A DNA stretch of 64,000 nt. It comes from Salinisphaeraceae bacterium. Lineage in GTDB: Bacteria > Pseudomonadota > Gammaproteobacteria > Nevskiales > Salinisphaeraceae. The notes beneath the pieces are model-generated. The model did not search any database. It saw nothing but the letters and a program-made list of their open reading frames with translations, and was not told where the DNA came from. Positions 18,444 through 57,303 of this stretch are shown here, piece after piece (within the stretch, counting starts at the first letter, position 1; each line of letters starts with the position of its first letter). The position numbers and the translations under genes are program-made. The stretch spans positions 1-64,000 of the forward strand of contig NYTH01000051.1 of assembly GCA_002683405.1 (NCBI GenBank), written 5' to 3'.

Positions 18444-18533
18444 GTGCCTATACTCCCGGGCGCACATCTAATGAATCTTGTGTGAATCTGCCCATCCGAA
18501 AGATGCCCCAGCGTGGCGGGAAGTTAAACAGGG

Positions 18534-22600: not shown

Positions 22601-24064
22601 TCAGCTGCTTGCACCAGGCATGAGTACGGTGACCACACGCTCTTCGGTATAGCCCAGCACGCCCGATTTGCCGCACTCGCGCCCCAGGCCACTGGTCTTG
22701 AAGCCACCCCAGGGCAGCCGCCCGTCGATGGGCGCCCAGCAGTTCACACCGATCGCGCCGGCTTCCAGCGATTGTGCCACGCGGTGCGCGCGAGCCAGGT
22801 TGTTTGTCCAGACCGTGCCCGCCAGGCCGTATACCGTATCGTTGGCCAGTCGAATCGCGTCGGCTTCCGTATCGAAAGGAATGATCGTGGCCACAGGCCC
22901 GAAAATTTCCTCGCGCGCAATGGTCATGTCGTTGCTCGCATTGCCAAACACGGTTGGCTTGACGAAGAAGCCCTTGCCCTTTTCAGCCACGCCACCGGCC
23001 ATAAGCTGGGCGCCCTCATCCAGGCCGGACTGGATATACCGATTCACGGTATCGAACTGACCGCGCTTGGCAACCGGCCCCATCTGCACGCCTTCTTCCT
23101 TGGGATCGCCAACCTTGATCGAATCGGCCGCGCCGGCGAGTGCTTTAGAGAACTCATCCGCAATGGACCGCTGTACAAAGATACGAGTACCGGCCGCACA
23201 GACCTGACCCTGGTTGAAAAACACACCCATGGCGCAGCCCTGAACGGCAGCCGCCATATCCGCATCCTCGAACACGATCTGCGGGCTCTTGCCGCCGAGC
23301 TCCATCGCCACGCGTTTGCACTGCGGCGCCACCCGCTGCTGGATTTGCGTGCCGACCTCCGGACTGCCCGTAAAGCTGACCTTGTCGACCAGCGGATGCT
23401 CGCTGAGCGCATTGCCCAGGACCGACCCGCGTCCGATCACAACATTGACAACCCCGTCGGGAATGCCGGCCTCGGTGCACAGCTTGGCGAGATGGAGCGC
23501 CGTGAAAGGCGTTTCGGTAGCCGGCTTGATGACTAGCGTGCAGCCGGCCGCGAGCGCCGGACCAACTTTCCAGGACAGAATCATCAGCGGGGTGTTCCAC
23601 GGCGTAATCGCGGCAACCACACCCACCGGCACGTGCTGCGTATAGGACAGCGTCGGCGTGCCCATATAGCCTGGCGTGGGAATGGTTCGGCCTTCCAGCT
23701 TGTCCGCCCAGCCCGCCGCATGACGCAGTGTGCTGATGGTATTCGGCAGATCAAGCAGCCGAGGCTCGATGGGCGAGCGACCAATGGCGCGGGCGTCCAT
23801 GTCGGCCAGCAACTCTTGGTCGCGCTCGACCAGATCAGCCAGCTTATTGATAAGAATACCGCGCTGCTCGCCGGTCATCTTGGACCATTCGCCACCCTTG
23901 GACTGGGCGTGTGCCGCCTTCACGGCGGCATCGACATCTTCGACGCTGCCTTCGACAGCCGTGGCGTAGATATCCTCGTTCACCGGATCCACCAGTTCGG
24001 TGACGCCGCTGCCGCTGCCGTTGATCGACTGACCGCTGATATAGTGCTGAAGCTGGGTACTCAT
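22601..24064 (-). CDS. styD: Phenylacetaldehyde dehydrogenase-like aldehyde dehydrogenase
   Basis: 487-residue NAD(P)+-dependent aldehyde dehydrogenase. Motifs: ITPWNTPLMILSWKVGPALA, the general-base Glu in MELGGKSPQ, and the nucleophile Cys in FFNQGQVCAAGTRIFV, followed by EEIFGPV. It most resembles phenylacetaldehyde/betaine-type dehydrogenases. In the context of styABC and the paa operon it is the natural StyD/FeaB candidate, converting phenylacetaldehyde to phenylacetate. The substrate is inferred from context. ATG 24064 is fixed by AGGAGGAG upstream. It is 47 bp downstream of paaJ. Confidence 0.8.
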   Translation of the reverse strand: MSTQLQHYISGQSINGSGSGVTELVDPVNEDIYATAVEGSVEDVDAAVKAAHAQSKGGEWSKMTGEQRGILINKLADLVERDQELLADMDARAIGRSPIEPRLLDLPNTISTLRHAAGWADKLEGRTIPTPGYMGTPTLSYTQHVPVGVVAAITPWNTPLMILSWKVGPALAAGCTLVIKPATETPFTALHLAKLCTEAGIPDGVVNVVIGRGSVLGNALSEHPLVDKVSFTGSPEVGTQIQQRVAPQCKRVAMELGGKSPQIVFEDADMAAAVQGCAMGVFFNQGQVCAAGTRIFVQRSIADEFSKALAGAADSIKVGDPKEEGVQMGPVAKRGQFDTVNRYIQSGLDEGAQLMAGGVAEKGKGFFVKPTVFGNASNDMTIAREEIFGPVATIIPFDTEADAIRLANDTVYGLAGTVWTNNLARAHRVAQSLEAGAIGVNCWAPIDGRLPWGGFKTSGLGRECGKSGVLGYTEERVVTVLMPGASS

Positions 24065-24111
24065 TGTTATAACTCCTCCTGCGCCGGCAGGCGATGTGTT
24101 GCCGGTGGGTT

Positions 24112-25317
24112 TTAGATGCGTTCGATAACCATGGCGATACCCTGGCCGACCCCGATGCACATCGTGCACAGGCCATAGCGCCCGCCGTTGTGTTCCAGAT
24201 AATTCAGGGCCGTGGTGGCCAGGCGGATGCCGGATGCGCCCAGCGGATGACCTATGGCGATGGCGCCGCCGTTGGGATTCACGTGCGGCGCGTCATCGGC
24301 CACGCCCAGATCGCGCAGCACGGCCAGCCCCTGTGCGGCAAACGCCTCGTTGAGTTCAATCACGTCCATCTGATCAATCGACAGACCGGCCAGGGCCAGG
24401 GCCTTTTTCGACGCGGGTGACGGACCAAAGCCCATGATGCGCGGCGCCACGCCGGCCACCGCGGACGCGAGAATTCGCGCGCGCGGCTTGAGCCCGTAGG
24501 CATCCACCGCTGCCTGGCTCGCCACGAGCGCGGCGCCGGCGCCATCGTTCACGCCGGAGGCATTACCGGCCGTAATCGTACCGTCGGGCCGCACGATCGG
24601 TTTGAGCCTGGCCAGCGCCGCGGCGTCGGTACCCGGCCGCGGATGCTCGTCACGCTCGAAGATAATCGGATCTTTCTTTCGCTGCGGCACTTCCACGGGC
24701 ACGATTTCGCTTTTGAAAAACCCGGCTTCATCCGCAGCCGCCCAGCGCGCCTGACTGCGCACGGCCAGCGCATCCTGATCCTCCCGCGAGACCTCGAAAT
24801 CGTCGGCCACGTTCTCGGCGGTTTCCGGCATGGAATCGATACCGTATTCCGCTTTCATCTTCGGGTTGACGAAGCGCCAGCCAATGGTGGTGTCGTAGAT
24901 TTCCGCCTTGCGCGAAAAGGCCGAGTCGGCCTTTCCCATCACGAATGGTGCGCGCGACATGCTCTCCACGCCCCCGGCGATCACGAGGTTCATCTCCCCG
25001 CATTTGATGGCGCGGGCCGCCATGGACAGCGTATCCAGACTGGAGCCGCAAAGGCGATTGACCGTACTGCCCGGCACATCGACCGGCAGCCCGGCCAGCA
25101 GACCCGCCATTCGGGCGACATTCCGATTGTCTTCGCCCGCCTGGTTGGCCGAGCCATACAGCAGGTCGTCTACTCTGCTCCAGTCCACGCTGGCGTTGCG
25201 GGCCATGAGCGCCTTGATGGGCACGGCGGCCAGATCGTCGGCCCTGACGGCCGACAGCGTCCCGCCGTAGCGGCCGAATGCCGTGCGAACGGCGTCACAG
25301 ATAAAGGCGTCTTGCAT
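24112..25317 (-). CDS. paaJ: 3-oxoadipyl-CoA / 3-oxo-5,6-dehydrosuberyl-CoA thiolase PaaJ
   Basis: 401-residue thiolase that acts twice in phenylacetate degradation, releasing acetyl-CoA and finally succinyl-CoA. Active-site Cys in [11 protein letters not shown], His in [11 protein letters not shown], and second Cys in [10 protein letters not shown]. The opening [16 protein letters not shown] and the GWRFVNPKM segment are those of PcaF/PaaJ rather than biosynthetic thiolases such as PhaA in this window. It lies 15 bp downstream of paaK. Confidence 0.92.
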
Positions 25318-35741: not shown

Positions 35742-37109
35742 TCAGGTCGTGCCCCACGCGCGTATGGCGTTCTGGGTCAGATAGTCGTCGAAAATATACG
35801 AATCGTTTACCCGGGTTGAGTGCGACGCATCCAGTTCCTTGACCTGCTCAAGGCGGCTGATCCGTCCGGTCTGAAAATCGAATGCGTGCAGATAGCACCA
35901 GGACCAGTAGGGGTGATCGCCGTCCATGAACTGCTCGCCATCCTGGTCATAGAGCCCGTAGCAGCCGTCAAACGACTTGAACGGCTTGCCGGCGCGATCG
36001 TAGGTCACCATCGCAACGGGCATCAGATTACGCGCATCGAACCACACGCGTTTCTTGCCTACCGGCGCTCTGGAAAATTTCACCGGCTCGGCCTCAACCA
36101 CGATGGTCTCGGGCACCAGTTCAACCACACTTTCAAAAAAGCTCTGACCCTTGGGTCCGCCGTGCACCGCATGGGCCCAGTTGTCGTTCTTCGGCTTCCA
36201 ACCACCCGAGACGCCGGCCAGCAGGGGCTGCCGGCCCACAATTTTGTAGTTACCCCAGGTATGCAGCGGGTCGCCCGCGGCCCAGGCGTCGGAGAGATAC
36301 AGGCAGGAACCCGGAACCAGCGGTTCGAATCGCTGATTGGTGGGGAACTGACGAATGCGCCGGAAGTCCGGAACATACCCGTACAGGAAAGGATACTGGT
36401 GCTGGTCGTACGGCCAGATGTTGAGAAACGAAGTGCCGGCATGCGACACCGGCGACGTGAAAATAACGGAATTGAAGCGCAACTTGTCCAGATGTTCGGA
36501 CCAGTACGGCTTCGGATCCATACTCACTCTGGCAACGGGGGCGAGTTCCGCCCAGACCAGGTCATACTGATAGTCAACCTCTCCCGACGTGTCGACGTCG
36601 TATTCACGAATCGCGTAAACGCTGGCGTCGTGTCGCCCCCAGCTGAGGGTCAGGCCGGCGAAATATTCAAGAGCCGACTCCGGCTCGGGGAAGGGATTAC
36701 CGCCGATCCAGGGTTTGCCCCTGTCGTCGACCACGTTCATCTGTTCGTCGAACCGCGCCTTGCCCTTGTTACGCAGGGTCGCTTCCTGGTACTCCCACGG
36801 ACCGAGTCGCATGTAATCCGTAGTCTGCGGAACAACCCTCAGGCGCCGGCCCATTTCCGCCACGTGCATATACTTGGCAGGCTCAAGCAAATCCTTGACG
36901 CTCTCCACATTGTCGGCGGTTATCTCGTCGCCTTCGGCGACAGCGCCACCGGAGTAGTCCGATAATGACTTGAGTTCGTCGGGATACGCTTTATCAATCT
37001 TGCCCTCGGACGCCATGGCGCTCCACAAGGGCGTGAAACCCAGGCTGGCCAGCGTCCCCGCGGAAGCGTGCTTCAGCAGCGTGCGTCTGTCATATCGTCG
37101 TATATGCAT
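35742..37109 (-). CDS. DUF1329 exported lipoprotein-carrier-like protein (copy 1)
   Basis: 455 residues. A twin-arginine-like leader (RRYDRRTLLKHASAGTLASLG) suggests export of a folded protein. The body has DUF1329 features: YPFLYGYVPDFRRIRQFPTNQRFEPLVPGS, DAWAAGDPLHTWGNYKIVGR and KKRVWFDARNLMPV. DUF1329 proteins are thought to have a LolA/LolB-like fold that could bind lipidic molecules (recalled). A paralogue lies at 40533-41915. ATG 37109 has GGTGGAG upstream. A strong terminator hairpin sits just before it, after the DUF1302 gene, so expression may be lower than that of its neighbours. Confidence 0.85.
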   Translation of the reverse strand: MHIRRYDRRTLLKHASAGTLASLGFTPLWSAMASEGKIDKAYPDELKSLSDYSGGAVAEGDEITADNVESVKDLLEPAKYMHVAEMGRRLRVVPQTTDYMRLGPWEYQEATLRNKGKARFDEQMNVVDDRGKPWIGGNPFPEPESALEYFAGLTLSWGRHDASVYAIREYDVDTSGEVDYQYDLVWAELAPVARVSMDPKPYWSEHLDKLRFNSVIFTSPVSHAGTSFLNIWPYDQHQYPFLYGYVPDFRRIRQFPTNQRFEPLVPGSCLYLSDAWAAGDPLHTWGNYKIVGRQPLLAGVSGGWKPKNDNWAHAVHGGPKGQSFFESVVELVPETIVVEAEPVKFSRAPVGKKRVWFDARNLMPVAMVTYDRAGKPFKSFDGCYGLYDQDGEQFMDGDHPYWSWCYLHAFDFQTGRISRLEQVKELDASHSTRVNDSYIFDDYLTQNAIRAWGTT

Positions 37110-37123
37110 AACGGGCTCCACCA

Positions 37124-37155
37124 TAAAAAAATCCAGTGGACCAGATGGCCCACTG
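37124..37155 (-). terminator. Intercistronic terminator or attenuator
   Basis: Minus strand: CAGTGG, a loop region of 10 nt that can partly pair (CCA/TGG), CCACTG, GA, then TTTTTTT. It lies between the DUF1302 stop (37214) and the DUF1329 start (37109), with the T-run only about 15 bp from that start codon. Partial termination would lower expression of the second DUF1329 gene. Confidence 0.7.
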
Positions 37156-37213
37156 CAAGGCCTCCCCGAGGGAGTTAGAACGGAGAGGGTGAGGAGAGTC
37201 GACTTGCGTCAGG

Positions 37214-39343
37214 CTAGAATTGATACGTAAACCTGAACACCAGTTCATCCGCGAAATCGATACGGCGCACCACGTTTTCGGTCGGCTCGCCGTGCAGGTC
37301 GCCATCGACGTAGTTGTAAAGCACTTCAACCACCTTGCCGCCACCCGGGTTGTACTGCAGGCCCGGCTGAATCAGCAGGCCGCCCTTGATGTCGTACAGT
37401 GCCGCCCACTCGATAACGAAGCGGCGGTTTGGCGTTGGCTGAAAGCCTGCGAACACGAAGTAGTTCGAGCTGCCGATACCGTCCGGAATGGTCGGGTCAC
37501 TGCCATCTTCATCGTTGCCGCTATAGCCGCTCAGATGCAGACCGACCAGGTCGCTTTCGCTGCGGTACTGGTACTGGAATACCAGGTAGGCCGCCGGGTA
37601 GGCCGCCGACCACCGAGTCCACTTCTCGGCCACGAAGGACGCGATGGTCTCGTCGGCGGTCAGGTAGTCCTTGCTCAGGCCCGGGTCGGTGAAGACGCGG
37701 TCGGGGGTGTACTGGACTTCCAGGTTCAGAATGATCGAGTCGAGCCAGGTGTTTTCGCTGCTGGTGACATAGCTGCCGCCCAGGCCAAAGACATCTTCAC
37801 GCTCGTAGTCGCGCTCGATATTACCACGCAAACCGCCCATCGGCCCGCCACCCTGGAAGAAGGTGTCTAGCTCGTTGCGCGCCTGCTCGAGATTGAAGGC
37901 TTCGGCGCCATAGATATCCTGCATGGCCGGAAAATCGAGAATTGCGTTGTTGAGCGCCTCGAAACCGTTGACCCGCACGCCGCCAGCCACCGCGAACCAA
38001 TCCTGCGAGGTGGCCGCGCCGGTCGGACCCGCCGCGATCGGCGCGTTGGCGAAGGCTTCATCGATCGTGTCGTAAAGGGCGCAGGTCGTGGGCGAGTAGT
38101 TATCGCCGCCGCAAAGCGCGTCGTAGCCCGGCTCTGACGGCGACAGCTTCGCCTCGTACGCGGCCGTCACGATTTCGCCGACCGGGCCATACAGGCCCTT
38201 GTTCACGCCGGATTTCGTCCACCGGATCACGCCCAGCGGATTGTAGCGATGCGCGTACACCGCCTGCCATCCCCATGTGCCGTAGTCAGCCTTTATACGA
38301 AAGCCGGCATCCAGCTCAGTATCGTAACCACCCTCATAGTAGTTATCGAAGGGCTTGTTGAAGCCGGTGGGGATAACGTTATACGGCGTGTTCGGGTTGG
38401 GCAGAATGCTCGGCTGAAATTTCTTGACGAAAAAATCGCCGAGAATATTGTTGGTCAACTGATAGGTAGCCCGGACCGACAGTGCGGGTACGCGCTTGTC
38501 CGAGAATTCTTCAATCGCCCGATCCAGAATGAGGTGACGGCGGAAGTCCAGGCCGTTGGGAATATCCAGCGTGCGGAAGAAGATACTGCTACCCCAGGCG
38601 ATGGTCTGGTTACCCATACGCAGGGTCAGATCGCCGGACTTGTACTCCACCTGGAAGGTGGGCAGGTCAATCATGTAATGCTCACCCGCGATCTCGAGCG
38701 GATTGAGGTTCTTGTCGCCGTCCCGACCCTTGGCCTCGAAGTAGTTCACATCGTAATCGGGTGCCTGACCGCCCGTGAAACCGCCGGCGATGTCGTTGAC
38801 GCTGTCGGTCTCGAACTCGTCGTACCAGCCCGGGTCGTACAGCGCGCGCATGCGCACATCGAGTTTCCAGTTGCGGGTGAACCGCGTCGTCATCGTGCCT
38901 TCAAGACGGAACTGCAGATAGTTCAGGTCGTCATCGGGGCGCGGCACGCTGTCGCTGCGGCGGAACTGATCCATGACGCCGGGAATCGGCGTGGTCCAGT
39001 AACCGGGACTGGGCGTACCGGGGTCCTGGCCGGTTATGCCTGCAATGGCGCCAGTCAGGGCCGCGAGGGCACCGGGGTCCACCACGCCACCGGGCACAAT
39101 GGTGCCGGGATCGGTGAATGCCGGCGGGAAATAGGCCTGGCGGGTAATCTCGGTATCGGAATAGGGCTGGTTACCCTGGTTGTAGAAATTCTGCGTATTG
39201 GACGTACGGATAGCCACGTCCGTCCTCAAAATACCCTGGAACACGGTGCTGTCCCAGAGCTCCTTGAATATGCCCGCACTGCTGATCGCAGGTGTCGCGG
39301 CCAGGGCCGCAGCCAGCCCGAATGTACCCAGTTTACTTGTCAT
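37214..39343 (-). CDS. DUF1302 outer-membrane beta-barrel protein
   Basis: 709 residues with a signal peptide (MTSKLGTFGLAAALAATPAISSAG). The rest alternates strands with Gly/Asn/Asp-rich turns and ends in ELVFRFTYQF, the terminal aromatic residue expected of an outer-membrane barrel. DUF1302 hallmarks include LTLRMGNQTIAWGSSIFFRTLDIPN and FRIKADYGTWGWQAVYAHR. It could form an outer-membrane channel or receptor for hydrophobic substrates (inference). It is third to fourth in a cluster with RND, DUF1329 and YCF48 genes. Start ATG 39343. Confidence 0.85.
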   Translation of the reverse strand: MTSKLGTFGLAAALAATPAISSAGIFKELWDSTVFQGILRTDVAIRTSNTQNFYNQGNQPYSDTEITRQAYFPPAFTDPGTIVPGGVVDPGALAALTGAIAGITGQDPGTPSPGYWTTPIPGVMDQFRRSDSVPRPDDDLNYLQFRLEGTMTTRFTRNWKLDVRMRALYDPGWYDEFETDSVNDIAGGFTGGQAPDYDVNYFEAKGRDGDKNLNPLEIAGEHYMIDLPTFQVEYKSGDLTLRMGNQTIAWGSSIFFRTLDIPNGLDFRRHLILDRAIEEFSDKRVPALSVRATYQLTNNILGDFFVKKFQPSILPNPNTPYNVIPTGFNKPFDNYYEGGYDTELDAGFRIKADYGTWGWQAVYAHRYNPLGVIRWTKSGVNKGLYGPVGEIVTAAYEAKLSPSEPGYDALCGGDNYSPTTCALYDTIDEAFANAPIAAGPTGAATSQDWFAVAGGVRVNGFEALNNAILDFPAMQDIYGAEAFNLEQARNELDTFFQGGGPMGGLRGNIERDYEREDVFGLGGSYVTSSENTWLDSIILNLEVQYTPDRVFTDPGLSKDYLTADETIASFVAEKWTRWSAAYPAAYLVFQYQYRSESDLVGLHLSGYSGNDEDGSDPTIPDGIGSSNYFVFAGFQPTPNRRFVIEWAALYDIKGGLLIQPGLQYNPGGGKVVEVLYNYVDGDLHGEPTENVVRRIDFADELVFRFTYQF

Positions 39344-39411
39344 GATTGAACCCCGGTTCTCCTGTGATTTTTGCAACGCGCCGGGTCCGTGCGACCGGCA
39401 GCGTCTCCTCC

Positions 39412-40446
39412 CTAGTAAGGCAGCTGCACTATCCGCCCTGAATGACCGACCGCCAGCAACTTGCCGACCTTCTGCGCGTTACCGGCCTGTACCAGATCGA
39501 CATACCAGCTTGTCGCCATGTCGTTGCCCTTGTCGGCGCGCCACGACTGGCCGGCATCCTCGCTGTAGAACGCCACACGCATGCCGGTCACCGCCATCTT
39601 GCTGCCGTCCATTAACGCCACCGCGAAAAGATTGGCGTCATCGGGGGCGCTGATGTCTTGCCAGGTCGCGCCATAGTCTGCGGTGCGAAGCAGCAACCCT
39701 GACTGACCGACCGCCATACCTACCCCGTCTTCGCCGATCTTCAGATCAAAGACACTGGGGCTGATGGTTTCGATATTTGATTCACCGCGGTGACCCACGC
39801 ACCAGCTGTGGCCCTCATCCACCGAATAGACGATGTAGCCAACCTCCCCGCCCAGAACCACGGCGCCCGAGTCGGTCACCTGCACGGTGTAAAGGCTGGG
39901 CTCCAGCAGCGCCTGATTCATGCCGCCGCCGCCCTGTTCGATGTCGATCAGACCTTCCCAGTCCGGCGCGGCAGCAATCCATTTTCTGCCTGCGTTTTCG
40001 GTTCTCAATACGGTGCCGAACGCGCCCACGATGTAGCCGAGACCGTTCGCATTCATATCGATTTGCAGCAGGCGCTCCTTGGTCCCGCTCGAGACGGTCT
40101 CCCACGCCCCATTGCTCTCACGGCGCAGGATGAGACCCTGCTGCCCGATGGCGACAATCACGCCATCCACGGCCACCACGCCCAACAGCGCCAATTGCGT
40201 AGGCGCCTGCTCGGAGGTCCAGCTTGCGCCGCCGTCCTCGGTAATCAGCACTTCGCCCAACTCGCCTACCGCCACGCCGAAGTCGTCTTCCATGGCGATA
40301 CTGAAAACGCGGTCATGGGCGATACCGTCCTGGAGGACGGAATAATCGGAATTCTCTTGTTTGGCCTCTTGTGCAGAGACCGCGCCAACAACCGCAAAAA
40401 CAAGCAGTGCGGCGCGCAAAATTTTTGATGACAGGTTGTTTTTCAT
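39412..40446 (-). CDS. YCF48/BNR-repeat periplasmic protein
   Basis: 344 residues with a signal peptide (ILRAALLVFAVVGAVSAQE). Repeated beta-propeller blades read GVAVGELGEVLITEDGGASW, GYIVGAFGTVLRTENAGRKW, GMAVGQSGLLLRTADYGATW and VAFYSEDAGQSW, the YCF48/HCF136-type photosynthesis-system stability repeat also common in non-phototrophs. It may be an assembly or scaffold factor for the cluster's envelope complex. ATG 40446 has only a weak GGGGTC site. A longer open frame to 40908 runs through the upstream DUF1329 gene and is rejected. Confidence 0.8.
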   Translation of the reverse strand: MKNNLSSKILRAALLVFAVVGAVSAQEAKQENSDYSVLQDGIAHDRVFSIAMEDDFGVAVGELGEVLITEDGGASWTSEQAPTQLALLGVVAVDGVIVAIGQQGLILRRESNGAWETVSSGTKERLLQIDMNANGLGYIVGAFGTVLRTENAGRKWIAAAPDWEGLIDIEQGGGGMNQALLEPSLYTVQVTDSGAVVLGGEVGYIVYSVDEGHSWCVGHRGESNIETISPSVFDLKIGEDGVGMAVGQSGLLLRTADYGATWQDISAPDDANLFAVALMDGSKMAVTGMRVAFYSEDAGQSWRADKGNDMATSWYVDLVQAGNAQKVGKLLAVGHSGRIVQLPY

Positions 40447-40532
40447 TGACCCCAACTCGGCTCCAGCCAGAAACCGCGGGCGGGCATCCCGCCCGCGGCC
40501 ACAGACTTGCAGATACTCCTTCGCTGTCGAAC

Positions 40533-41915
40533 CTAGACGGTACCAAGCGCCTGAATGGCACCCTGCGTGCAGTAGGTCTCGTACAGCCAGTCCTGATCCG
40601 CGGCGAAGCGACCTTCGATGCCGGTACCGCGTTCGGCGTTGTGAGTCCGCGACTGACGCTTGGACTGATGGTCGTAGATCATCACGTAAGTCCAGGACCA
40701 GGCCGGATCCTTGCCGTTCCAGCCGGGCACCATCTGGTCGCCCTTCTTGAACTGGGCGAAAGCCATCTCGAAGTTGGCCCACAGCTTGCCCTGCTTGTCG
40801 TAACGCACGGCCGCACAGACCTGGCTGTTGCGGGTGTCGACGTAGACACGCTTCTTGCTGATCGGTGAACGCGGGAAGGCAGTCGGTTCGCACTCGACCA
40901 CGATACATTCCGGGGTCATCTCGTATTCGGTTTCCCAGAACTTGTTGTTGCTGGCCTGCTCGACCGGCTCCCAGTTTTCGCGATCAATATTCACGTTGCC
41001 GTTCCAGGCGCCCAGCATCGGCTTGCGCTCGATGATCTTGTAGTTACCCCAGGTGAGGTAGGGGTCACCGGCACCCCAGGGGTCCGTCAGGAACCAGGTG
41101 GAGCCCGGAATGAGCGGCTCGAAACGCTGGTTGGCCGGGAACTGACGCACGCGACGGAACTGCGGCAGGTAGCCGTAAAGCTCCGGAATCTTGCGTTGGT
41201 CGTACGGCCAGTTGCTCAGGAACGCCGTGCCGCGCACGTCCTGCGACGAGGCGAAGTACACCGACTGGCGACGAATCTCGTTTTCGTGCCCGGGGTAGGC
41301 CTTGCCGTCCAGACGGCCCTGCATCTGCAGCTCAACCCACTGGAAGTCGTAGCGGAATTCAAGCTTGCCGTCGCCGTTGAAATCCCACTGCTGAATGGCG
41401 TAGCAGTTGGCGTCCGCACGGCCCCAGCTCATGGCGAGGTTGGCCCAGGTTTCCTGACCGGTTTTCGGGTTCGGAAACGGCAGACCGCCACCGTAGGGCT
41501 TGCCGGACTGAGTCACCACGTTGCCGGTTTCGCTATCCAGCTTGGCCTCATTGCCAGGCTTCAGGTTGTTCATCGTGGCTTCGTAGTAGCCTGCGTTGAA
41601 CATCTTGGAGATGTCGCGCTCCGGCGCCTTGATGCGGATCTCTCGACCTTCTTCCTTGATCTGCAGGTAGGCGCTGTCGTCGAGCAGATGCTTGATGTCC
41701 TCGACATTGTCCTTGGTGATCATGTCACCCGGCTTGAATTTGCCCTTGGTCTGGGCTTCAACGGACCAGAGCTCATCCGGCCAAGCCTTTTGGACATCGG
41801 TGTCCTGCGCCATGGCCATGCCGTACGGCATGAGAACGCCGGCACCGGCACCCATGGCCGTATTCTGCAGCAGCTTGCGACGGCCGTAATCGATATCGTA
41901 TTTGCGAATGTGCAT
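40533..41915 (-). CDS. DUF1329 exported protein (copy 2)
   Basis: 460 residues, paralogous to 35742-37109. It has a twin-arginine-like leader (YGRRKLLQNTAMGAGAG). Shared DUF1329 blocks: YGYLPQFRRVRQFPANQRFEP, LTDPWGAGDPYLTWGNYKII and KKRVYVDTRNSQVCAAVRYD. The two copies agree in layout throughout, so a duplication within the cluster is likely. ATG 41915 has CGGAGGG upstream. It lies between the RND and YCF48 genes. Confidence 0.85.
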   Translation of the reverse strand: MHIRKYDIDYGRRKLLQNTAMGAGAGVLMPYGMAMAQDTDVQKAWPDELWSVEAQTKGKFKPGDMITKDNVEDIKHLLDDSAYLQIKEEGREIRIKAPERDISKMFNAGYYEATMNNLKPGNEAKLDSETGNVVTQSGKPYGGGLPFPNPKTGQETWANLAMSWGRADANCYAIQQWDFNGDGKLEFRYDFQWVELQMQGRLDGKAYPGHENEIRRQSVYFASSQDVRGTAFLSNWPYDQRKIPELYGYLPQFRRVRQFPANQRFEPLIPGSTWFLTDPWGAGDPYLTWGNYKIIERKPMLGAWNGNVNIDRENWEPVEQASNNKFWETEYEMTPECIVVECEPTAFPRSPISKKRVYVDTRNSQVCAAVRYDKQGKLWANFEMAFAQFKKGDQMVPGWNGKDPAWSWTYVMIYDHQSKRQSRTHNAERGTGIEGRFAADQDWLYETYCTQGAIQALGTV

Positions 41916-42078
41916 ATCACCCTCCGGTTGCACTTACTTGTCCAGGCAATTGCCTGGTCGATCGTCAAGTCTCAGCCGAGCATCAGCCCGGTCCCTCGTG
42001 GCTGGGTCTTCTTTTATTGCTCACCGGTGGCGAGCCGCGCACCGCCCCTGACCCTCAAGGCGGCGCGAATTCAAAAAA

Positions 42079-44550
42079 TCAGGATGACGTGACTGTCGCG
42101 CCCGGCACCGATGGCGAGTCATCATCAACGCGCCGCGCACCAGTCCAGTGGGACAAATCCACGTTCTCGCCAACAATCAAGTCGTCCCGCTCGATGAACT
42201 TCGGCTTGATCAGCCACACGAGCAGCGGCAGCACGATCAGCGCGAGGAACATGTTGATGAGCATGACCGCCGAAAGCAGCAGCCCCATATCGGCCATGAA
42301 CTTCAGATCGGACAGGAAATACCAGGGCAGGATGCCGATGAGCATGACGAAGGCCGTGAACATGATGGCCTTGCCCGTTGTGGTAATAGACGCCGTCAGG
42401 GTCTTACCGAGGTCCTTGTCCTGCGCCGAGTACTCCTCGACGATACGGGACAGCAAATAGATGCCGTAATCGATGCCGACACCCACACCGAGCACCGCCA
42501 CCATTACGGAGTTGATGTCCAGCCCCACCCCCAGGAAGTACATGGCGGCCGTGAGGAAAAAGTTCGCCAGCGTGACCGGGATCAGGACGATAAAGGCTGC
42601 AACAATGGATCGATAAGCAAAGGTCGCAATGACCAGGATCGCCGCCGCGAGGCAGGCCAGGATTAACCAGTGATAGCGCACCACGACCTGATTGCTGGCC
42701 TCCTGCAGGGCAATCGTCCCGGATGCCAGCAGCACCTTGAAACCGGGGTGGTCTTCGCCAACCGCCTCGACCGCCTTGCGTGCCGTGGCCAGCGCCGCGT
42801 CGATGGTTTCCTGCTTGTTGTCGCGATAAAACAGGGAAACAGTGGAGTCCTGGAAGTTGAAATCGCTGACGCCGGCAAAGTTGATCGGATTCTGACCAAA
42901 GGTCACACCCACCCGGGCGCCCGTAACTGCCTTGTCTTCCGGGTCCATCGGCAACCATTTGGGATGCCCGCCCGACAACAGCCGATTACCCCGCTCGAGA
43001 TAATCAGAAAAGGAGATCGTGGTGCGTGCCGGGATGGGCTCGGCATTTTCCGCAATGTGCTGAATTTTCTTGGACACGCGATAGGCGTCGGCCGTACTGG
43101 CCGTGCGCAGCTGCATGTCGTCATCGTCTTTCGAGTCGAGAATGATCTCGAGGGAGTTCACGCCCGGGAAATGCCCGTTGATAGCGCGAACCGCGGTGTT
43201 GTAGTCCGATTCAGGCCAGAGCAGGTTGCTTCCCTCGACCGGATTGCCAATCTTGATCTGGAAGGCAAAGAAGATGGCCGCAGCCGACAATATCACCGAC
43301 ACGACGGTCGTCATCCGCGCGGTACGCCCCTGTACCAGGTTGGCGATTTGCGTCAGCAGGCCGCGCTGCAAGCGGTGAATCCCCTTCTCCTCGCCCTTGC
43401 CGACGATATCGTCAACGTTTTTGGGGGTCGGCAGATAGGACAGCAGAACCGAAATGAGAATGACGCCGGTGGGAATGATGCAGATGGCCCACCATCCGCA
43501 GAAGAGCGCGAAACGCTGCATGGCCGGCAGCGGCGCGATGCCGATGAACATGATGCCCAGGGCGTCGGTAATAATGCCCAGCACACTCGGCGCCATCATT
43601 ACCCCCATGGTGATTTCGGCCGACTGTCGCTTGCTGTCGACGTGCCCCAGAATTTCGTAGAAGCGCTCCGTGAACTGAACCGAGTGCGAGAAGGTTCGCG
43701 CCACCAGCAGCAGAGGCACAATCATCAGCAGCGGCTCGATCGGCGACCCAATCCAGCCCACCAGCCCGAAGCCCCAGACGGCAGCCACCGCACTACAGAT
43801 AATCGGCACCAGCACGCCCGTAACATTTCGCATGTAGAACGCCAGCGCCAGAACCAGCAGCAGCAGCGTCACGCCAAAGATTTCGTAGGTCTGCTCCTGG
43901 AGCTTGTACACCCACCCCGTCAGCATCGGCTGACCGGCCAGATAGATTTCGTGCGCATCGTCCTCGGCGGCCTGAGTCAGCTTGCGCACCTCGCGCCAGA
44001 CCTGCCCGTACTCGAGCAGATGCTCATGGAATGCCACGTTGATCAGCGTGGCGGTATGATCGGGCGACACCAGATAACCGCTGGCCGATGGCGATCGCTC
44101 GACGCGGCGCTCGATGTCCCGCAGCTGCTCAGCCGCCGTGGGGACGCTGTCATCCATCACCGGCCGCATTTCCACGCCGTAAGGCGTGGCTTCGGCATAA
44201 GTGACTTTCTCCGTGGTAATCGAGATCAGGCGTTCGTGGTAAACGCCGGGTATGAGGTCGAGATTCTTCGTCAGATCCCAGACCTTCTGAAGCGTCTGCT
44301 CGTTATAGATATCCTCGCCGTCGGTGCGCTTGACCATCACCATGACGTTGAGGGGGTTACCAAAATTCGGATGCTGCTTGAACACCTGCACGAAAGGATC
44401 GTCGGCCGGAAGCAGATCGGAGAAGATCGTCCGTATTTCTACGCCCGGGATACCGGCCGCAAATGCCACCGTCGTGGCCACGAAGAAGCCCGCCACCCAG
44501 GCGCGCCTGTCCATAAGCCACTTGGACATACGAAAACGAAACGAATCCAT
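42079..44550 (-). CDS. MMPL/HpnN-type RND transporter
   Basis: 823-residue inner-membrane protein with the RND layout: a short N-terminal helix near 15-40, a large periplasmic loop to about 220, six helices (about 225-400, with RTFSHSVQFTERF and ILISVLLSYL), a second periplasmic loop, and a second helix set from about 640 (VAVLGVGVGIDYGIYLLSRI, TTTGKAIMFTAFVMLIGILPW, AVMLINMFLALIVLPLL). It belongs to the predicted exporters of the RND superfamily (COG1033) rather than to drug pumps. GGAGGAG precedes the ATG. First gene of the envelope cluster. Substrate unknown; lipids or hydrophobic aromatics are candidates. Confidence 0.85.
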   Translation of the reverse strand: MDSFRFRMSKWLMDRRAWVAGFFVATTVAFAAGIPGVEIRTIFSDLLPADDPFVQVFKQHPNFGNPLNVMVMVKRTDGEDIYNEQTLQKVWDLTKNLDLIPGVYHERLISITTEKVTYAEATPYGVEMRPVMDDSVPTAAEQLRDIERRVERSPSASGYLVSPDHTATLINVAFHEHLLEYGQVWREVRKLTQAAEDDAHEIYLAGQPMLTGWVYKLQEQTYEIFGVTLLLLVLALAFYMRNVTGVLVPIICSAVAAVWGFGLVGWIGSPIEPLLMIVPLLLVARTFSHSVQFTERFYEILGHVDSKRQSAEITMGVMMAPSVLGIITDALGIMFIGIAPLPAMQRFALFCGWWAICIIPTGVILISVLLSYLPTPKNVDDIVGKGEEKGIHRLQRGLLTQIANLVQGRTARMTTVVSVILSAAAIFFAFQIKIGNPVEGSNLLWPESDYNTAVRAINGHFPGVNSLEIILDSKDDDDMQLRTASTADAYRVSKKIQHIAENAEPIPARTTISFSDYLERGNRLLSGGHPKWLPMDPEDKAVTGARVGVTFGQNPINFAGVSDFNFQDSTVSLFYRDNKQETIDAALATARKAVEAVGEDHPGFKVLLASGTIALQEASNQVVVRYHWLILACLAAAILVIATFAYRSIVAAFIVLIPVTLANFFLTAAMYFLGVGLDINSVMVAVLGVGVGIDYGIYLLSRIVEEYSAQDKDLGKTLTASITTTGKAIMFTAFVMLIGILPWYFLSDLKFMADMGLLLSAVMLINMFLALIVLPLLVWLIKPKFIERDDLIVGENVDLSHWTGARRVDDDSPSVPGATVTSS

Positions 44551-44847
44551 TAAAACTCCTCCTGTCCGACGCTTGGCTGACTGCTCGCGGGCAGCCTGGC
44601 CGTCAGCGCATCCCCTTTATCGTTATTCAATGCCTGCAGTATATTCTGCAACTCGCAATACGGTACTTATTTATTGCATTGCGCAGCAAAACTGTATCAA
44701 ACTGCCAGGCGATGTCACACAACCATAGCGAATGTAAGTTATTCGTCAATGGAATTAATCGAGCCCTGACCGACATCTGCACAAGCAGATAATCATTTTT
44801 GAGGCTCCTTATAAAACACACGACCCTGCGAGAAAGGACAGAAGGCA
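44551..44847. promoter_or_regulatory. Divergent control region before the RND gene
   Basis: 297 bp, AT-richer than the flanks. It contains the dyad TGCAG-TATATT-CTGCA (44635-44650) overlapping a possible minus-strand -10 (TATACT, 44638-44643), and TATAAA about 33 bp upstream of the plus-strand gene at 44848. No gene is recognised here. The dyad may be an operator for an unlinked regulator. Confidence 0.4.
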
Positions 44848-45912: not shown

Positions 45913-47349
45913 ATGCACAAGGTCTTTTTCTCGCTAGCGTTCATCTGCCAGGCTTTTCTTGCTGCCGGCGCGTTGGCCCAGGCGCAACGCGTGGGTCCCG
46001 ATGATGGTGCAAAGGATAATGTGCAGGATATGGTGGCCGCCCATCTGAAGACCTGCCCGGCCCGCTACGCGCGCATCATAAAGCGCGTCGACGAGGCCGA
46101 TACCGCGGATGCCAGCTTCTACTCGGTGCCGGACTACCCCTGGATCCGCGGCAATCGATTTCTCGCGTCCTACGTCGGCCATTTCGAGAACGAGCTGGAA
46201 CTGACCACCTGGCTGTCTCAGCTGCGGGATAACGAGGGCTACGCCCGGAATATCGAACTGCGTAATGCCGGCCTGAGTGATGCGGAACGCCGCGAAACGC
46301 TGGACAACCTGCGCGTATGTGCCGTGTGGCTATCGATTGATCGCGTCTTCAATCCCGATACCGAGGAAGCATTCATCGATGCCACGCTGGAGGGCGCCCG
46401 CGTGAAGGCGGCCGACCATGCCCCCATTTCCGCCCGTCAGCAGAAAAAAATCGCGCAGGACATTGATCGCCGTTTTAATTCGCAGCCCGAAAAGACCCCG
46501 GTCACCGAATGGCGGGTAGCCCGGCCGGAGGGGATGATGTCGCCCAGCGAAGTGTTTGCGCTCTACCGCGACCTGCCCCGAGACGCGCTTGGCCGTATCG
46601 GTATGTTCCACACAGCCTGGAATGCGCTGGCGCATCACTACGCGCCGGTCTGGCTCATCCATACGCAGACCCAGGCCGACGTTCCGGGCGCGCCGACGAT
46701 CGATGCGGCCGGCAACACGCGCATCAACCGGGAGACCCCAACTGTTTACTGGCACATTACCTATACGCGAGTTGAATCCAGAGCGGTGCCGCAGATCAAT
46801 TATGTGGTGTTCTTCGGCGACGACGCCGGCCAGCCAGAGAACGGACAGGTCTGGCGTATTACCTTGAATCAGCAGGGTCAGCCGGTTGTGTACGAGTCGA
46901 TGCGGCTGGACGGCACCGAACATCTGTGGTTCCCCGCTACCGCGATGAGAGTTCGCGAAGACGTCGACCCGACCGTGCCTCAATCCGTGGCCGGGACCGG
47001 CATTGCCGCAACGCGAATGCTTTCCGACACGCATCAGGTCTATCGCGTCGCCACTCAGGCTACCTATGAGGCTGCGGATTATCGCCGGTATACCCTGGCA
47101 CCCTATGATGATCTGCTGACGCTGGAAACCGGCCCGAATCGAAGCGCCAGCCTGTTCGATGCTAAGGGCCGGTTGAAGGGCGCCAAACGGACCGGGCAAC
47201 GCAACCCGCCGATGCGCCAACTCGGCTCGCATTCACTTGCGCCGGGCGAGCCTTTCTTTTTTGATGATCCGAACCTGTTCGACGCCAATTTCGCGCTGCT
47301 GGAACCAGCCTCTGACGCCAATATGACCGACACCAGCGCGTCGCGCTAA
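45913..47349 (+). CDS. Secreted protein of unknown family
   Basis: 478 residues with a signal peptide (MHKVFFSLAFICQAFLAAG, cut near ALAQAQ). The N-terminal 200 residues are helical with a single C-x-C region near the start of the mature protein; a beta-rich segment around 250-370 (VYWHITYTRVESRAVPQINYVVFFGDD) suggests a compact domain. GAGGAG precedes the ATG. It lies 39 bp downstream of the MDR gene and 10 bp before the SGNH gene, so it may act with them in processing an ester or ketone. No enzyme motif recognised. Confidence 0.6.
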   Translation: MHKVFFSLAFICQAFLAAGALAQAQRVGPDDGAKDNVQDMVAAHLKTCPARYARIIKRVDEADTADASFYSVPDYPWIRGNRFLASYVGHFENELELTTWLSQLRDNEGYARNIELRNAGLSDAERRETLDNLRVCAVWLSIDRVFNPDTEEAFIDATLEGARVKAADHAPISARQQKKIAQDIDRRFNSQPEKTPVTEWRVARPEGMMSPSEVFALYRDLPRDALGRIGMFHTAWNALAHHYAPVWLIHTQTQADVPGAPTIDAAGNTRINRETPTVYWHITYTRVESRAVPQINYVVFFGDDAGQPENGQVWRITLNQQGQPVVYESMRLDGTEHLWFPATAMRVREDVDPTVPQSVAGTGIAATRMLSDTHQVYRVATQATYEAADYRRYTLAPYDDLLTLETGPNRSASLFDAKGRLKGAKRTGQRNPPMRQLGSHSLAPGEPFFFDDPNLFDANFALLEPASDANMTDTSASR

Positions 47350-53067: not shown

Positions 53068-56000
53068 CTACGCCTGCGCGGGAGCGGGCGCCTCCTTGTT
53101 GTCGGGCAGCGCGTCGTGATCTTCGCCGAGCAGCATGTACATGGCCGGTACGACAAACAGCGTGAACAGTGTACCGAACCCCATACCCGTCGCGATCACC
53201 AGACCCATCGAGAAGCGGGCCTCGGCGCCGGCGCCGGTGGCCACGATCAGCGGCACAACGCCAAACACCGTCGAGGCTGTCGTCATGAGAATTGGCCGCA
53301 GACGCAGGCTGGCGGCTTCTTCCACCGCCTCACGCTTGCTGCGCCCCTGCTCGCGCTGCAGCTGGTTGGCAAATTCCACGATAAGAATGCCGTGCTTGGC
53401 GATCAGGCCGATGAGCGTGATGAGGCCCACCTGCGTGTAGATGTTGATGGAGGTCAGCCCCAGCGTCAGAAACACCAGCGCGCCGGCCACCGACATGGGC
53501 ACGCTCACCAGGATGATCAGCGGATCGCGGAACGACTCGAACTGCGCCGCCAGCACCAGAAAGATGATGATGATGGCGAAGAAGAAGGTGAAGACCAGAC
53601 TGCTGCCCTCTTCCACGAACTGCCGGGAAATGCCCGAGTAATCCGCCTTGTAGCCCGACGGGAACACCTCGTCCGCAGCATTCTGCAGAAAGCCGAGCGC
53701 CTGACCAATGGACACGCCGGGTGCCGGCACGCCCTGCAGCGTGGCGGCGTTGAGCTGCTGGAAGCGCTTGAGCTGACGCGGCTCTACCGAGCGCTCCAGG
53801 GTGACCAGGCTCGACATGGGCACCAGCTCACCGGAGGCGCTGCGCGTGTAGTAGTCGTTCAGCTGGTCCGGGGTGTAGCGATCGGCGCGAACCACCTGCG
53901 GAATGACCTTGTAGCTGCGTCCCTGAATCGCAAAGCGGTTGACGTAGTTGCCGCCCAGCATGGTGGCCAGGTCGGCGCCGATCTGGGACATGGTAATGCC
54001 CAGCGCAGCGGCCTTGGCGCGATCTACCGTCACTTCATATTGCGGGCGGTCGAAGTTCAGATCGAGCTGGGTGAAGACGAACAGCCCGGATTCCTGCGCC
54101 CGCTTCTGCATCTCCTGCGAGACCTGGTTAAGCTGCTCGGCGCCCTGCGTCGTGCCAATCACGAACTGCACCGGTAGACCACCGCCGCTACCCGGCAGCG
54201 GCGGGCGTTCGAATACCGCGATCTCGGCCCCGGCCACCCCGTTCACCTTTTCCTGCAGCTCGGGCTTGATCTGCATCTGTGTGCGTTCCCGGTCACTCCA
54301 GGGCTTGAGCTTCATGCCGGAGATGGTGGTGCTGGGCGATCCGGGTGCCCCGCCGGCGCCCACGCCCATGATCATGAAGAAATCGTTGGTCTCGGGGATG
54401 GTGTAGTACAGCCGCTGCAGCTCTTCGGTGTACAGCCGCGAGTGCTCCAGCGAGGCGTACGGCGCCGTGGTGGTCAGCGTGAACAGGATGCTCTGGTCCT
54501 CCACCGGGGCCAGCTCCTTCTGCGCACCGTCGAACAGGAAATAGCAGGAACCGAGCACCACGGCGGCGAACAGGTAGGTCACCGGCCGCGTGTCCAGCGA
54601 GCCGTGCAGGCGCCGCTGGTAGAAGCCCTGCAGCGAATCGAACCGCCGGTCCAGCCAGTGGGTGAAACCGCCCTCGCTCTCGTCGCGCTTGAGCAGCTTC
54701 GAGCACAGCATGGGTGACAGCGTGAGCGCCACGATGCCGGAAATGAGCACGGCGCCCGCCAGCGTAAAGGCAAACTCCGAGAACAGGCTGCCCGTCAGCC
54801 CGCCGGTGAAGCCGATGGGCAGATACACCACAACAAGCGTCAGCGACATGGCCACGATGGGCGTGGCCAGTTCACGCGCGCCCTGGATGGCGGCGTCAAA
54901 GGGTTTCATGCCCTCTTCCACGTGCCGATGGATGTTCTCCACGATCACGATGGCGTCATCCACCACCAGGCCGATGGCGAGCACCAGCGCGAGCAGGGTG
55001 AGCAGGTTGATCGAAAACCCCAGCAGCAGCATCACCATGCCCACGCCCACCAGCGCCAGCGGCATGGCGATGACCGGTATGGCCACGGTTCGCAGCGAGC
55101 CGAGGAAGAGAAAAATGACCACCGTAACGATCAGCAGCGTAATGCCCAGCGTGAAGATCCCCTCGCCGATGGCGTCTTCGATGTATTCGGTAGCGTCGTA
55201 AACGATCACGCCGTTGAGTGCGTCCGGAAAATCCGCCTGCAGATCGGGCCACTTTTCACGCACGGCCTGGATGACCGTCAACTCGTTGGCGGTCGGCAGC
55301 ACCGAGATGCCGATGTAGGGCCCCTCGTTGCCGTCGTGAATGGCGGCGGTTTCATAGCCTTCCGCGCCAAGCACCACGGTGCCCAGATCACCCAGCCTGA
55401 CCTGATTGCCGTCGACTTCCTTGACCACCAGATCCTCGAACTGCGACTTGCTGTGCAGATCGGTCGAGGCCGTCAGGTTGATCGCGACCATGTCGCCCTT
55501 GGTCTGGCCCACGGCCGCCAGGAAATTGTTCTGCGTCAACCGGGCCCGCACGTCCGACGGCGTCAGGCCAAAGGCCGCCAGCCGCTCGGGCTGCAGCCAG
55601 ATGCGCATGGCGAAACGGCGGCCACCGATGATCTCCGCCTTCTGTACGCCCGCCACTGTCGACAGCTCGGGAACGACCACTCGCGTGAGATAGTCGGTAA
55701 TCTCGTTGTTTTCCAGCTCTTCGCTGGTAAAACTCATGTACATCGAGGCGGTGGCATCGCCCACCTGCACGTCGATGACCGGATCCTCCGATTCGGCCGG
55801 CAGATCGGACCGCACCTTGTTGACCTTGGAGGTGATCTGCGTGAGCGCCTCGTTGGGCGGATAGTTCAGCTCCAGAAACGCCTGAATCGACGACACGCCC
55901 TGGATACTGGTGGAGGTGAGATAGTCGATGCCGTCCGCCCCCGCAATCTCCTGCTCGAGCGGGGTGGTGATGAAGCCCTTGATCAGCTCCGCGTCGGCGC

Positions 56001-56157
56001 CGACGTAGGTCGTCTGAACCGATATGACCGCCTTGTCTGATCGCGGAAACTCGCGCACGTTCAGCGAGTTGTAGGCGCGAAAGCCGATCAGCAGAATCAG
56101 CAGGCTCACCACGGAGGCGAGCACCGGCCGCTGGATGAAGATGTCTGTAAATTTCAT
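53068..56157 (-). CDS. RND multidrug efflux pump, inner-membrane subunit
   Basis: 1029 residues of the HAE-1 RND family. The opening FTDIFIQRPVLASVVSLLIL is typical. The TM4 proton-relay pair is in LAIGLVVDDAIVIVENIHRH, and the second half repeats the layout (LTLGLTSINIYTQVGLITLI, GLIAKHGILIVEFANQLQ). Twelve helices and two large periplasmic loops. It exports drugs, solvents or fatty compounds with the adjacent adaptor and TolC-like channel. It starts 9 bp after the adaptor stop. Confidence 0.95.
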   Translation of the reverse strand: MKFTDIFIQRPVLASVVSLLILLIGFRAYNSLNVREFPRSDKAVISVQTTYVGADAELIKGFITTPLEQEIAGADGIDYLTSTSIQGVSSIQAFLELNYPPNEALTQITSKVNKVRSDLPAESEDPVIDVQVGDATASMYMSFTSEELENNEITDYLTRVVVPELSTVAGVQKAEIIGGRRFAMRIWLQPERLAAFGLTPSDVRARLTQNNFLAAVGQTKGDMVAINLTASTDLHSKSQFEDLVVKEVDGNQVRLGDLGTVVLGAEGYETAAIHDGNEGPYIGISVLPTANELTVIQAVREKWPDLQADFPDALNGVIVYDATEYIEDAIGEGIFTLGITLLIVTVVIFLFLGSLRTVAIPVIAMPLALVGVGMVMLLLGFSINLLTLLALVLAIGLVVDDAIVIVENIHRHVEEGMKPFDAAIQGARELATPIVAMSLTLVVVYLPIGFTGGLTGSLFSEFAFTLAGAVLISGIVALTLSPMLCSKLLKRDESEGGFTHWLDRRFDSLQGFYQRRLHGSLDTRPVTYLFAAVVLGSCYFLFDGAQKELAPVEDQSILFTLTTTAPYASLEHSRLYTEELQRLYYTIPETNDFFMIMGVGAGGAPGSPSTTISGMKLKPWSDRERTQMQIKPELQEKVNGVAGAEIAVFERPPLPGSGGGLPVQFVIGTTQGAEQLNQVSQEMQKRAQESGLFVFTQLDLNFDRPQYEVTVDRAKAAALGITMSQIGADLATMLGGNYVNRFAIQGRSYKVIPQVVRADRYTPDQLNDYYTRSASGELVPMSSLVTLERSVEPRQLKRFQQLNAATLQGVPAPGVSIGQALGFLQNAADEVFPSGYKADYSGISRQFVEEGSSLVFTFFFAIIIIFLVLAAQFESFRDPLIILVSVPMSVAGALVFLTLGLTSINIYTQVGLITLIGLIAKHGILIVEFANQLQREQGRSKREAVEEAASLRLRPILMTTASTVFGVVPLIVATGAGAEARFSMGLVIATGMGFGTLFTLFVVPAMYMLLGEDHDALPDNKEAPAPAQA

Positions 56158-56166
56158 GACGCGGCG

Positions 56167-57297
56167 CTAGTAGTTTCGGGCCTGGCCGACTTCGGCCTTG
56201 TTCTCGGGCAGCACTTCGTTGTCGATGATCAAACGGTCGCCGCCGCGCAGCTTGATCTGCCCGGCCACGACCACTTCATCACCGGCGTCCACGCCACTGA
56301 CGATCTGCACCTGGTCGCCCCGCGTTTCGCCGGTGCGCACGTTGACGCGCTTGGACCGCTTCTCGGGCTCGCCGCCGCCCTCCGGCGTTTGCTCGACCAC
56401 CTTGAAAACGGTGTCGCCGTAGGGGTTATAGGCAATCGCGGTCTGCGGCAGCGTGATGACTTCGTTGGTCTGGTTCTGCAGCAGCTCGACGCGTCCGAAC
56501 ATGCCCGGCTTCAGGCGACCGTCGGGGTTGTCCAGCTGGGCGCGCAGATCAAATGACCGGGTCCCGGCCGCCACCTTGGGGCTGATGGCCACGACTTCAC
56601 CCTTGAACGTGCCGTCCAGACCCTCCAGCAGCAGCTCGACTTGCTGGCCAACCGCGGCCTTGTCAAACTGCTGTTGCGGCAGCGTGAAGTCCAGATAGAT
56701 CGGGTCCAGCGTCTGCAGCGTGACGATGGTGGCACCCGGGTCCAGATACTCACCCAGGTCCACCTGGCGCAGACCCAGCACACCGGCGAACGGCGCATTG
56801 ATGGTCTTCTTGTTGATGGCCGCCTGCTTGGCCTGAACCGCGGCGCCAGCGTTGTCGTATTCGGCCTGGGCCATATCCAGGTCGGACTGCGAGCCGACGT
56901 TGCGCTCGCGTAGCCGGCGCTTGCGCTCCAGCGTCTGACGCGAGAGCTCACGCTGGGCTTTCAGACCCTGCAGCTCGGCGACTTCGGTTGACGTGTCCAG
57001 CGACAGCAGCAGGGCACCATGCTCCACCTGCTCGCCCGAATCGAAGGCCAACCGCGCCACCTTGCCCGGCACTTCGGCCGTCACATCGACCCCCTGCACC
57101 GCGCGCAGGCTGCCGGTGCTTCTCAGACTGGGCTGCCAGGTCTGCTTTTCGGCGGTCATGGTTGCCACGGTAACGGGTGGCGCTTTCTGATTCGCCAGAA
57201 ATTCCGCCGTTTTCATGTTCACGAAGGCCTTCCAGCCGAAGATGCCGCCAAACACGATGAGCAGGGCGAGCACCATGATGACCATGCGCTTTTTCAT
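56167..57297 (-). CDS. RND efflux periplasmic adaptor (MFP)
   Basis: 376 residues. An N-terminal hydrophobic anchor (MVIMVLALLIVFGGIFGWKAF), a lipoyl/barrel region (RAVQGVDVTAEVPGKVARLAFDSGEQVEHG and its return strand INAPFAGVLGLRQVDLGEYLDPG) and a helical hairpin between them define the HlyD/AcrA-type adaptor. It links the inner-membrane pump to the outer channel. It lies 6 bp downstream of the TolC-like gene. Confidence 0.95.
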   Translation of the reverse strand: MKKRMVIMVLALLIVFGGIFGWKAFVNMKTAEFLANQKAPPVTVATMTAEKQTWQPSLRSTGSLRAVQGVDVTAEVPGKVARLAFDSGEQVEHGALLLSLDTSTEVAELQGLKAQRELSRQTLERKRRLRERNVGSQSDLDMAQAEYDNAGAAVQAKQAAINKKTINAPFAGVLGLRQVDLGEYLDPGATIVTLQTLDPIYLDFTLPQQQFDKAAVGQQVELLLEGLDGTFKGEVVAISPKVAAGTRSFDLRAQLDNPDGRLKPGMFGRVELLQNQTNEVITLPQTAIAYNPYGDTVFKVVEQTPEGGGEPEKRSKRVNVRTGETRGDQVQIVSGVDAGDEVVVAGQIKLRGGDRLIIDNEVLPENKAEVGQARNY

Positions 57298-57303
57298 TCG
57301 CTG

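Follow-up and report, generated by a model that had tools for sequence, protein, structure and literature searches.

A conserved five-gene RND-DUF1329-YCF48-DUF1302-DUF1329 cassette in a Salinisphaeraceae bacterium: a candidate envelope machine for apolar hydrocarbons

Little is known about how Gram-negative bacteria that degrade hydrocarbons transport, or keep out, the oily substrates that dissolve in their membranes. The closest described example is AmeABCD of Castellaniella defragrans, which consists of a DUF1302, a DUF1329, a YCF48 and an HAE3 RND protein (PMC6394551) and which, in the literature found, is the sole set of this kind with a dedicated mutant study. Without ame, cells are less tolerant of apolar monoterpenes and grow less well on them, are unimpaired in growth on perillyl alcohol, aldehyde and acid, and accumulate more Nile Red when de-energised; at low limonene, growth was rescued by acetate (PMC6394551). 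Additionally, PP_0765/PP_0766 and PP_2018/PP_2019 of Pseudomonas putida are all required for growth on Tween20 (PMC10866462), and the benzene degrader ORM2a shows high expression, during benzene degradation, of a 'Nanopod' cluster encoding a DUF1329 protein, a YCF48 protein, an MMPL transporter and a porin-like protein (PMC13101534). As stated in a passage of the latter report, deletion of a DUF1329 gene in Delftia impaired growth on phenanthrene (PMC13101534). Here, we describe a cassette built from these families at positions 35742-44550 of the first 64,000 nucleotides of contig NYTH01000051.1 (GenBank assembly GCA_002683405.1) from a Salinisphaeraceae bacterium, a stretch hereafter called the window. 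An initial annotation of this DNA held that the set has no assigned function, which is wrong for the kind, since AmeABCD, the P. putida set and the benzene-degrader cluster have phenotype or expression data.

The interval holds five genes, all confirmed on the minus strand and transcribed in the order RND, DUF1329-A, YCF48, DUF1302, DUF1329-B, and gene order across genomes identifies them as a conserved operon. By analogy with AmeABCD, they probably encode an envelope-spanning machine, driven by the proton-motive force, for an apolar pathway substrate, a reading held with moderate confidence. The features concerned are the following:

42079-44550, minus strand: first gene of the cassette, RND (MMPL/HAE3-like) inner-membrane transporter of 823 amino acids (Pfam MMPL, NCBIfam TIGR00921, motifs and transmembrane pattern, tree).
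40533-41915, minus strand: DUF1329-A, candidate periplasmic LolA-like carrier with a twin-arginine translocation (Tat) signal, MHIRKYDIDYGRRKLLQ (Pfam DUF1329 and LolA_like; A-position group; twin arginine).
39412-40446, minus strand: YCF48/BNR propeller of 344 amino acids with a signal peptide (Pfam PSII_BNR; 29% identical to AmeC).
37214-39343, minus strand: DUF1302 family, candidate outer-membrane protein (Pfam DUF1302).
37134-37155, minus strand: intrinsic-terminator-like hairpin in the gap between DUF1302 and DUF1329-B (9 pairs, GATTTTTTT tail).
35742-37124, minus strand: DUF1329-B, second candidate LolA-like carrier with a Tat signal, MHIRRYDRRTLLK (Pfam DUF1329 and LolA_like; B clade; twin arginine).
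44551-44847, no strand assigned: divergent intergenic region upstream of RND, with two weak promoter-like matches (consensus matches only).

The five same-strand genes and the families proposed for them by the initial annotation are borne out by these coordinates and by Pfam, with scores above the curated cut-offs for MMPL/RND (73 bits), DUF1302 (70 bits), PSII_BNR in the YCF48 protein (51 bits) and DUF1329 (164 bits in A and 177 bits in B, against a cut-off of 23.1). Over a short stretch, the DUF1329 proteins also match LolA_like, at 36.7 bits in A and at the cut-off in B. The DUF1302 family match makes the fourth protein a candidate outer-membrane barrel, and the YCF48 protein aligns with AmeC at E 7e-15.

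The order of the cassette recurs widely. In a neighbourhood survey whose sampling was uneven and centred on one bacterial order, with loci picked by RND match and some blocks cut by contig or fetch ends, the exact five-gene order RND-DUF1329-YCF48-DUF1302-DUF1329 was found in 24 blocks; a further 15 had the same order minus the final DUF1329, and others had the RND gene last. A lack of conserved co-occurrence, which the initial annotation had named as a ground for refutation, was thus looked for in the survey and not found, the order being kept in these 24 blocks and on a plasmid of Methylibium petroleiphilum PM1 (see below). An RND match at E 1e-60 was present in 59 of 100 genomes sampled from the window's order and its neighbours, with up to nine matches within a single genome, and strong matches of the RND lineage (above about 300 bits, mostly more than 50% identical) comprised 122 genes in 46 genomes. 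In the window's own family, none of the 16 members sampled had the lineage, and an even, class-wide sample of 369 genomes returned it at E 1e-130 in only 6, one of which is the window's own. The lineage is, in sum, widespread and multi-copy in one bacterial order, where it is associated with toluene-type, styrene and alkane oxygenases.

Searched family by family, the window's genome contains a second cassette of the same lineage on another contig (locus L013, contig C38, 205-11815), with a B-type DUF1329 that is 61% identical and an additional DUF1329 upstream. The same genome carries stand-alone RND genes of the lineage (L056 on contig C33 and L057 on contig C6), with no DUF1302, DUF1329 or YCF48 gene nearby; on contig C33 (L056), the RND gene is flanked on either side, at distances of up to about 9 kb, by genes for FadL/TodX-type channels.

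The link to hydrocarbon oxidation comes from the neighbourhoods of the relatives. The tree places the window RND in a clade of 12 members (support 100). Of its 11 relatives there, nine have PF02332 diiron oxygenase genes of the toluene-monooxygenase type nearby, and two have alkB. An alpha subunit sampled from one of those nine loci (L062) matches toluene/o-xylene monooxygenase (ToMO) at E 8e-248, and the two alkB-linked relatives have an AlkB that shares 55-60% identity with that of the window, together with a MalT/LuxR regulator. Across the survey, 12 of 53 diiron oxygenase clusters have an RND gene of this lineage within 10 kb against 1.16 expected (about tenfold), and counted per genome the figure is 10 of 18 against 1.12 expected, although the genomes are related and the co-locations are not independent events. 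Within the window itself, styA, encoding the styrene monooxygenase StyA (17166-18467, minus strand; above the NCBIfam curated cut-off), an aldehyde dehydrogenase gene (22601-24169) and the paa (phenylacetyl-CoA) genes at about 24-35 kb suggest a styrene-to-phenylacetate route. Additionally, an AlkB alkane monooxygenase (6484-7713, minus strand), whose closest solved structure is 8sbb (E 2.8e-139), is encoded divergently from a MalT/LuxR-type regulator (7863-10622, plus strand), and two relatives, as well as the PM1 plasmid, have the same pair of families next to the cassette.

The RND protein belongs to a lineage of its own. Its best NCBIfam match is TIGR00921 (HAE3), at 152 bits against a curated cut-off of 352, and profiles of HpnN, BstA and MmpL3 score it at 23-44 bits against cut-offs of 750-1400. 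It carries the motifs ARxFSHxVQ in transmembrane helix (TM) 4 and GVGIDYGIY in TM10, whose intramembrane DY pair is kept in 83 of 83 RND proteins. The TM4 SHxVQ and TM10 DY signatures are common to the window RND lineage, AmeD and the other RND proteins compared, which makes a common mechanism plausible. Membership of the AmeD lineage was considered and rejected: identity to AmeD is 25% (E 3e-50), and in the tree, a quick one like all those built here, the window RND stands in a fully supported lineage apart from AmeD, with long branches that leave the exact placement unsure. AmeD clusters instead with two further RND proteins encoded in the same genome as the window (39% identity).

In a tree of 104 rows, the DUF1329 proteins sort by operon position (A before YCF48, B after DUF1302) with as few changes as are possible; the B-type proteins form a clade with support 100 that takes in the PM1 B copies, and the PM1 A copies fall at its base. 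From this topology, A and B are paralogues of ancient origin that divide by operon position, and a recent local duplication as the source of the second DUF1329 was rejected on the same ground. The alignment yielded just two positions that discriminate A from B, both conservative, when type-specific active-site residues were sought, and among solved structures a search by sequence turned up only a weak match for DUF1329 (E 0.09). Both marks of a Tat substrate are found, namely a conserved twin-arginine motif, retained in 49 of 50 A and 35 of 36 B relatives, and a genomic Tat translocase, as TatC is present in the window's genome. The 'Tat-like' signals that had been proposed on both proteins are, on this evidence, right and strong. 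The N-termini read from DUF1329 proteins of other lineages, AmeB among them, have a Sec-type look, with no twin arginine in the signal peptide.

The gap before DUF1329-B is also distinctive. A terminator-like hairpin occurs at 15 of 32 DUF1302>DUF1329-B junctions, against 0.45 expected from shuffles, and other cassette junctions gave 0 of 44, 1 of 56, 0 of 11 and 6 of 55 (1.05 expected for the last). The stem sequences differ among relatives, and most hairpins end 9-39 bases upstream of the likely DUF1329-B start codon. Since this leaves little space for a separate promoter, the hairpin likely acts through partial termination or stabilisation of the mRNA 3' end, and the amount of DUF1329-B made probably differs from that of the other four proteins.

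Several gene starts were refined after simple calling of open reading frames (ORFs). DUF1329-A probably starts at 41915, within an ORF that reaches back to a GTG at 41933. The YCF48 start is likely 40446 (MKNNLSS..., opening a signal peptide) and not 40908 as in the ORF list, so the gene does not overlap DUF1329-A. For DUF1302 the likely start is an ATG at 39343, with an alternative TTG at 39376, and for DUF1329-B an ATG at 37109. With these starts, the intergenic gaps of the cassette are short, roughly 70-165 bases. The weak, consensus-based promoter-like matches upstream of RND lie at 44749-44722 and 44718-44691 on the minus strand, and at the other end a convergent PaaX-like gene stops 30 bases from DUF1329-B, the last gene of the cassette. 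Beyond the cassette, 45913-47349 (plus strand) encodes an exported protein of 478 amino acids with no Pfam or NCBIfam match, and a relative of it at 27% identity adjoins an RND gene in another locus (L063, 11865-13397). Further on, a TetR-linked tripartite efflux operon (53068-59375, minus strand) encodes an AcrB-type pump, a membrane-fusion protein (MFP) and an outer-membrane efflux protein (OEP). The window, which the initial annotation held to lack any dedicated styrene, phenylacetate or alkane transporter, does have envelope transporters, in the form of this AcrB/MFP/OEP operon, and FadL/TodX-type channels, which were not found in the window, are present elsewhere in the genome.

Taken as an AmeABCD-like machine, the cassette could work as follows, with cargo, direction, pairing of parts and energy coupling all inferred. 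The RND protein would take an apolar substrate out of the inner membrane, and DUF1329-A and DUF1329-B, exported by Tat already folded, would ferry it across the periplasm. The YCF48 propeller may help to couple pump to carrier, and DUF1302 would form the outer-membrane end that passes the substrate out. Located behind the internal hairpin, DUF1329-B would be dosed differently from the other four proteins. By keeping hydrocarbon low in the membrane, such a machine would allow the first-step monooxygenase to work without membrane damage. The cargo is probably styrene or similar monoaromatics, possibly alkanes; by analogy with the Ame case, phenylacetate is an unlikely cargo, because ame deletion spared growth on perillyl alcohol, aldehyde and acid. 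Trafficking of a hydrophobic substrate, as first proposed for the set, hence stands as its best-supported role, with the link to aromatic and alkene oxidation holding in relatives, and the inclusion of phenylacetate is what the analogy speaks against. The prediction that follows from this reading is a phenotype on an apolar hydrocarbon and none on phenylacetate.

The same parts might instead serve uptake, the substrate passing from DUF1302 through the DUF1329 carriers to an inner-membrane monooxygenase, with the RND protein driving or gating inward transfer. This seems unlikely. In its favour, the P. putida members needed on Tween20 and, as given in the passage of PMC13101534, the impaired growth of the Delftia DUF1329 mutant on phenanthrene suit uptake and tolerance alike, and no FadL-type channel was found in the window, though such channels exist elsewhere in the genome. 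The tolerance defect, the greater cellular Nile Red and the acetate rescue at low limonene that follow ame deletion argue against it, and small aromatics diffuse through membranes. Moreover, RND pumps known in this superfamily move cargo outward. Because of the Ame phenotype and the RND mechanism, export or limitation of membrane-dissolved hydrocarbon is the likely net effect and is favoured over uptake.

Somewhat more doubtful is a role in the trafficking of lipids or acyl compounds (membrane remodelling, fatty acyl or wax-type products), in which the aromatic pathways would be incidental and each copy would serve a different lipid. Thiolases, acyl-CoA ligases and CoA-transferases in several neighbourhoods, the presence of up to nine RND matches in one genome, and a weak but detectable relatedness to HpnN, BstA and MmpL3-type RND proteins are in line with it; scores far under the cut-offs of those families, and the consistent position of the window's clade near hydrocarbon oxygenases, above chance for the diiron type, are not. 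A stress or assembly module that transports no pathway substrate, for instance one for outer-membrane vesicle or 'nanopod' formation, is very improbable, for although DUF1302 and DUF1329 proteins are found in Delftia nanopods and the benzene-degrader cluster is named after them, the DUF1329 of the nanopods shares only 21% identity with that of the benzene degrader, and the presence of an RND pump whose intramembrane DY pair is conserved points to transport.

Several observations weigh against the AmeABCD-like machine itself. Besides the low identity of its RND protein to AmeD, DUF1329-A and DUF1302 are barely recognisable as relatives of AmeB (23%, E 0.005) and AmeA (E 0.002), and AlphaFold, run on alignments holding the window's own proteins plus AmeB or AmeA alone, returned models too poor for use (pLDDT 36 for DUF1329-A and 25 for DUF1302). 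In 20 surveyed blocks the RND gene stands alone. AlkB was rejected as a general partner of the RND lineage, given that 2 of about 150 AlkB genes lie near a cassette, which is about chance by a rough estimate. In other clades of the lineage, many neighbourhoods hold acyl-CoA or ketone-type pathways, such that the cargo may vary, and for the window's lineage both cargo and direction are putative. More speculatively, the cassette may represent a second, separately evolved hydrocarbon-trafficking lineage, in which two specialised LolA-like shuttles, folded in the cytoplasm before Tat export and made at different doses owing to an internal terminator, would link the inner membrane to an outer-membrane protein by relaying apolar substrate, beside the first-step oxygenase; this is put forward as a tentative possibility.

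Compared with known systems, the cassette is nearest in kind to AmeABCD, which was located via a published deletion primer and matched in its gene lengths. Both unite the four component families in one cassette adjoining a hydrocarbon pathway, and both have homologous RND and YCF48 proteins, the former with TM4 SHxVQ and TM10 DY in common. However, the Ame order is DUF1302-DUF1329-YCF48-RND, its single DUF1329 is of the Sec type whereas both of the window's are of the Tat type, and the window adds a terminator-like hairpin before its fifth gene. The only good plasmid match for the cassette, for which no described function was found in the literature, is on Methylibium petroleiphilum PM1 plasmid RPME01 (NC_008826), where the identical five-gene order occurs in two inverted copies, with genes for an alkane 1-monooxygenase, for rubredoxins and for a LuxR-type regulator close by, and where RND and DUF1329-B are 49% and 57% identical to the window's; its host is of a different bacterial group, the copies are plasmid-borne and one DUF1302 copy is broken by an insertion sequence. 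Two further sets can be likened by parts, not by sequence: that of P. putida has a DUF1302, a DUF1329, a periplasmic protein and an RND-type pump, but is split over two loci with a single DUF1329, and the ORM2a cluster shares DUF1329, YCF48, MMPL and porin-like parts, but belongs to an anaerobe, includes universal-stress-type proteins and lists no second DUF1329. HpnN, BstA and MmpL3, which are associated with hopanoid, sterol and mycolate, respectively, belong to the same RND superfamily and match part of the window RND weakly, with scores far from their cut-offs. The kind of system is already known through AmeABCD; by sequence comparison, the window cassette is a separate branch of it, distinguished by two unusual, Tat-exported DUF1329 carriers, an internal hairpin and a gene order of its own.

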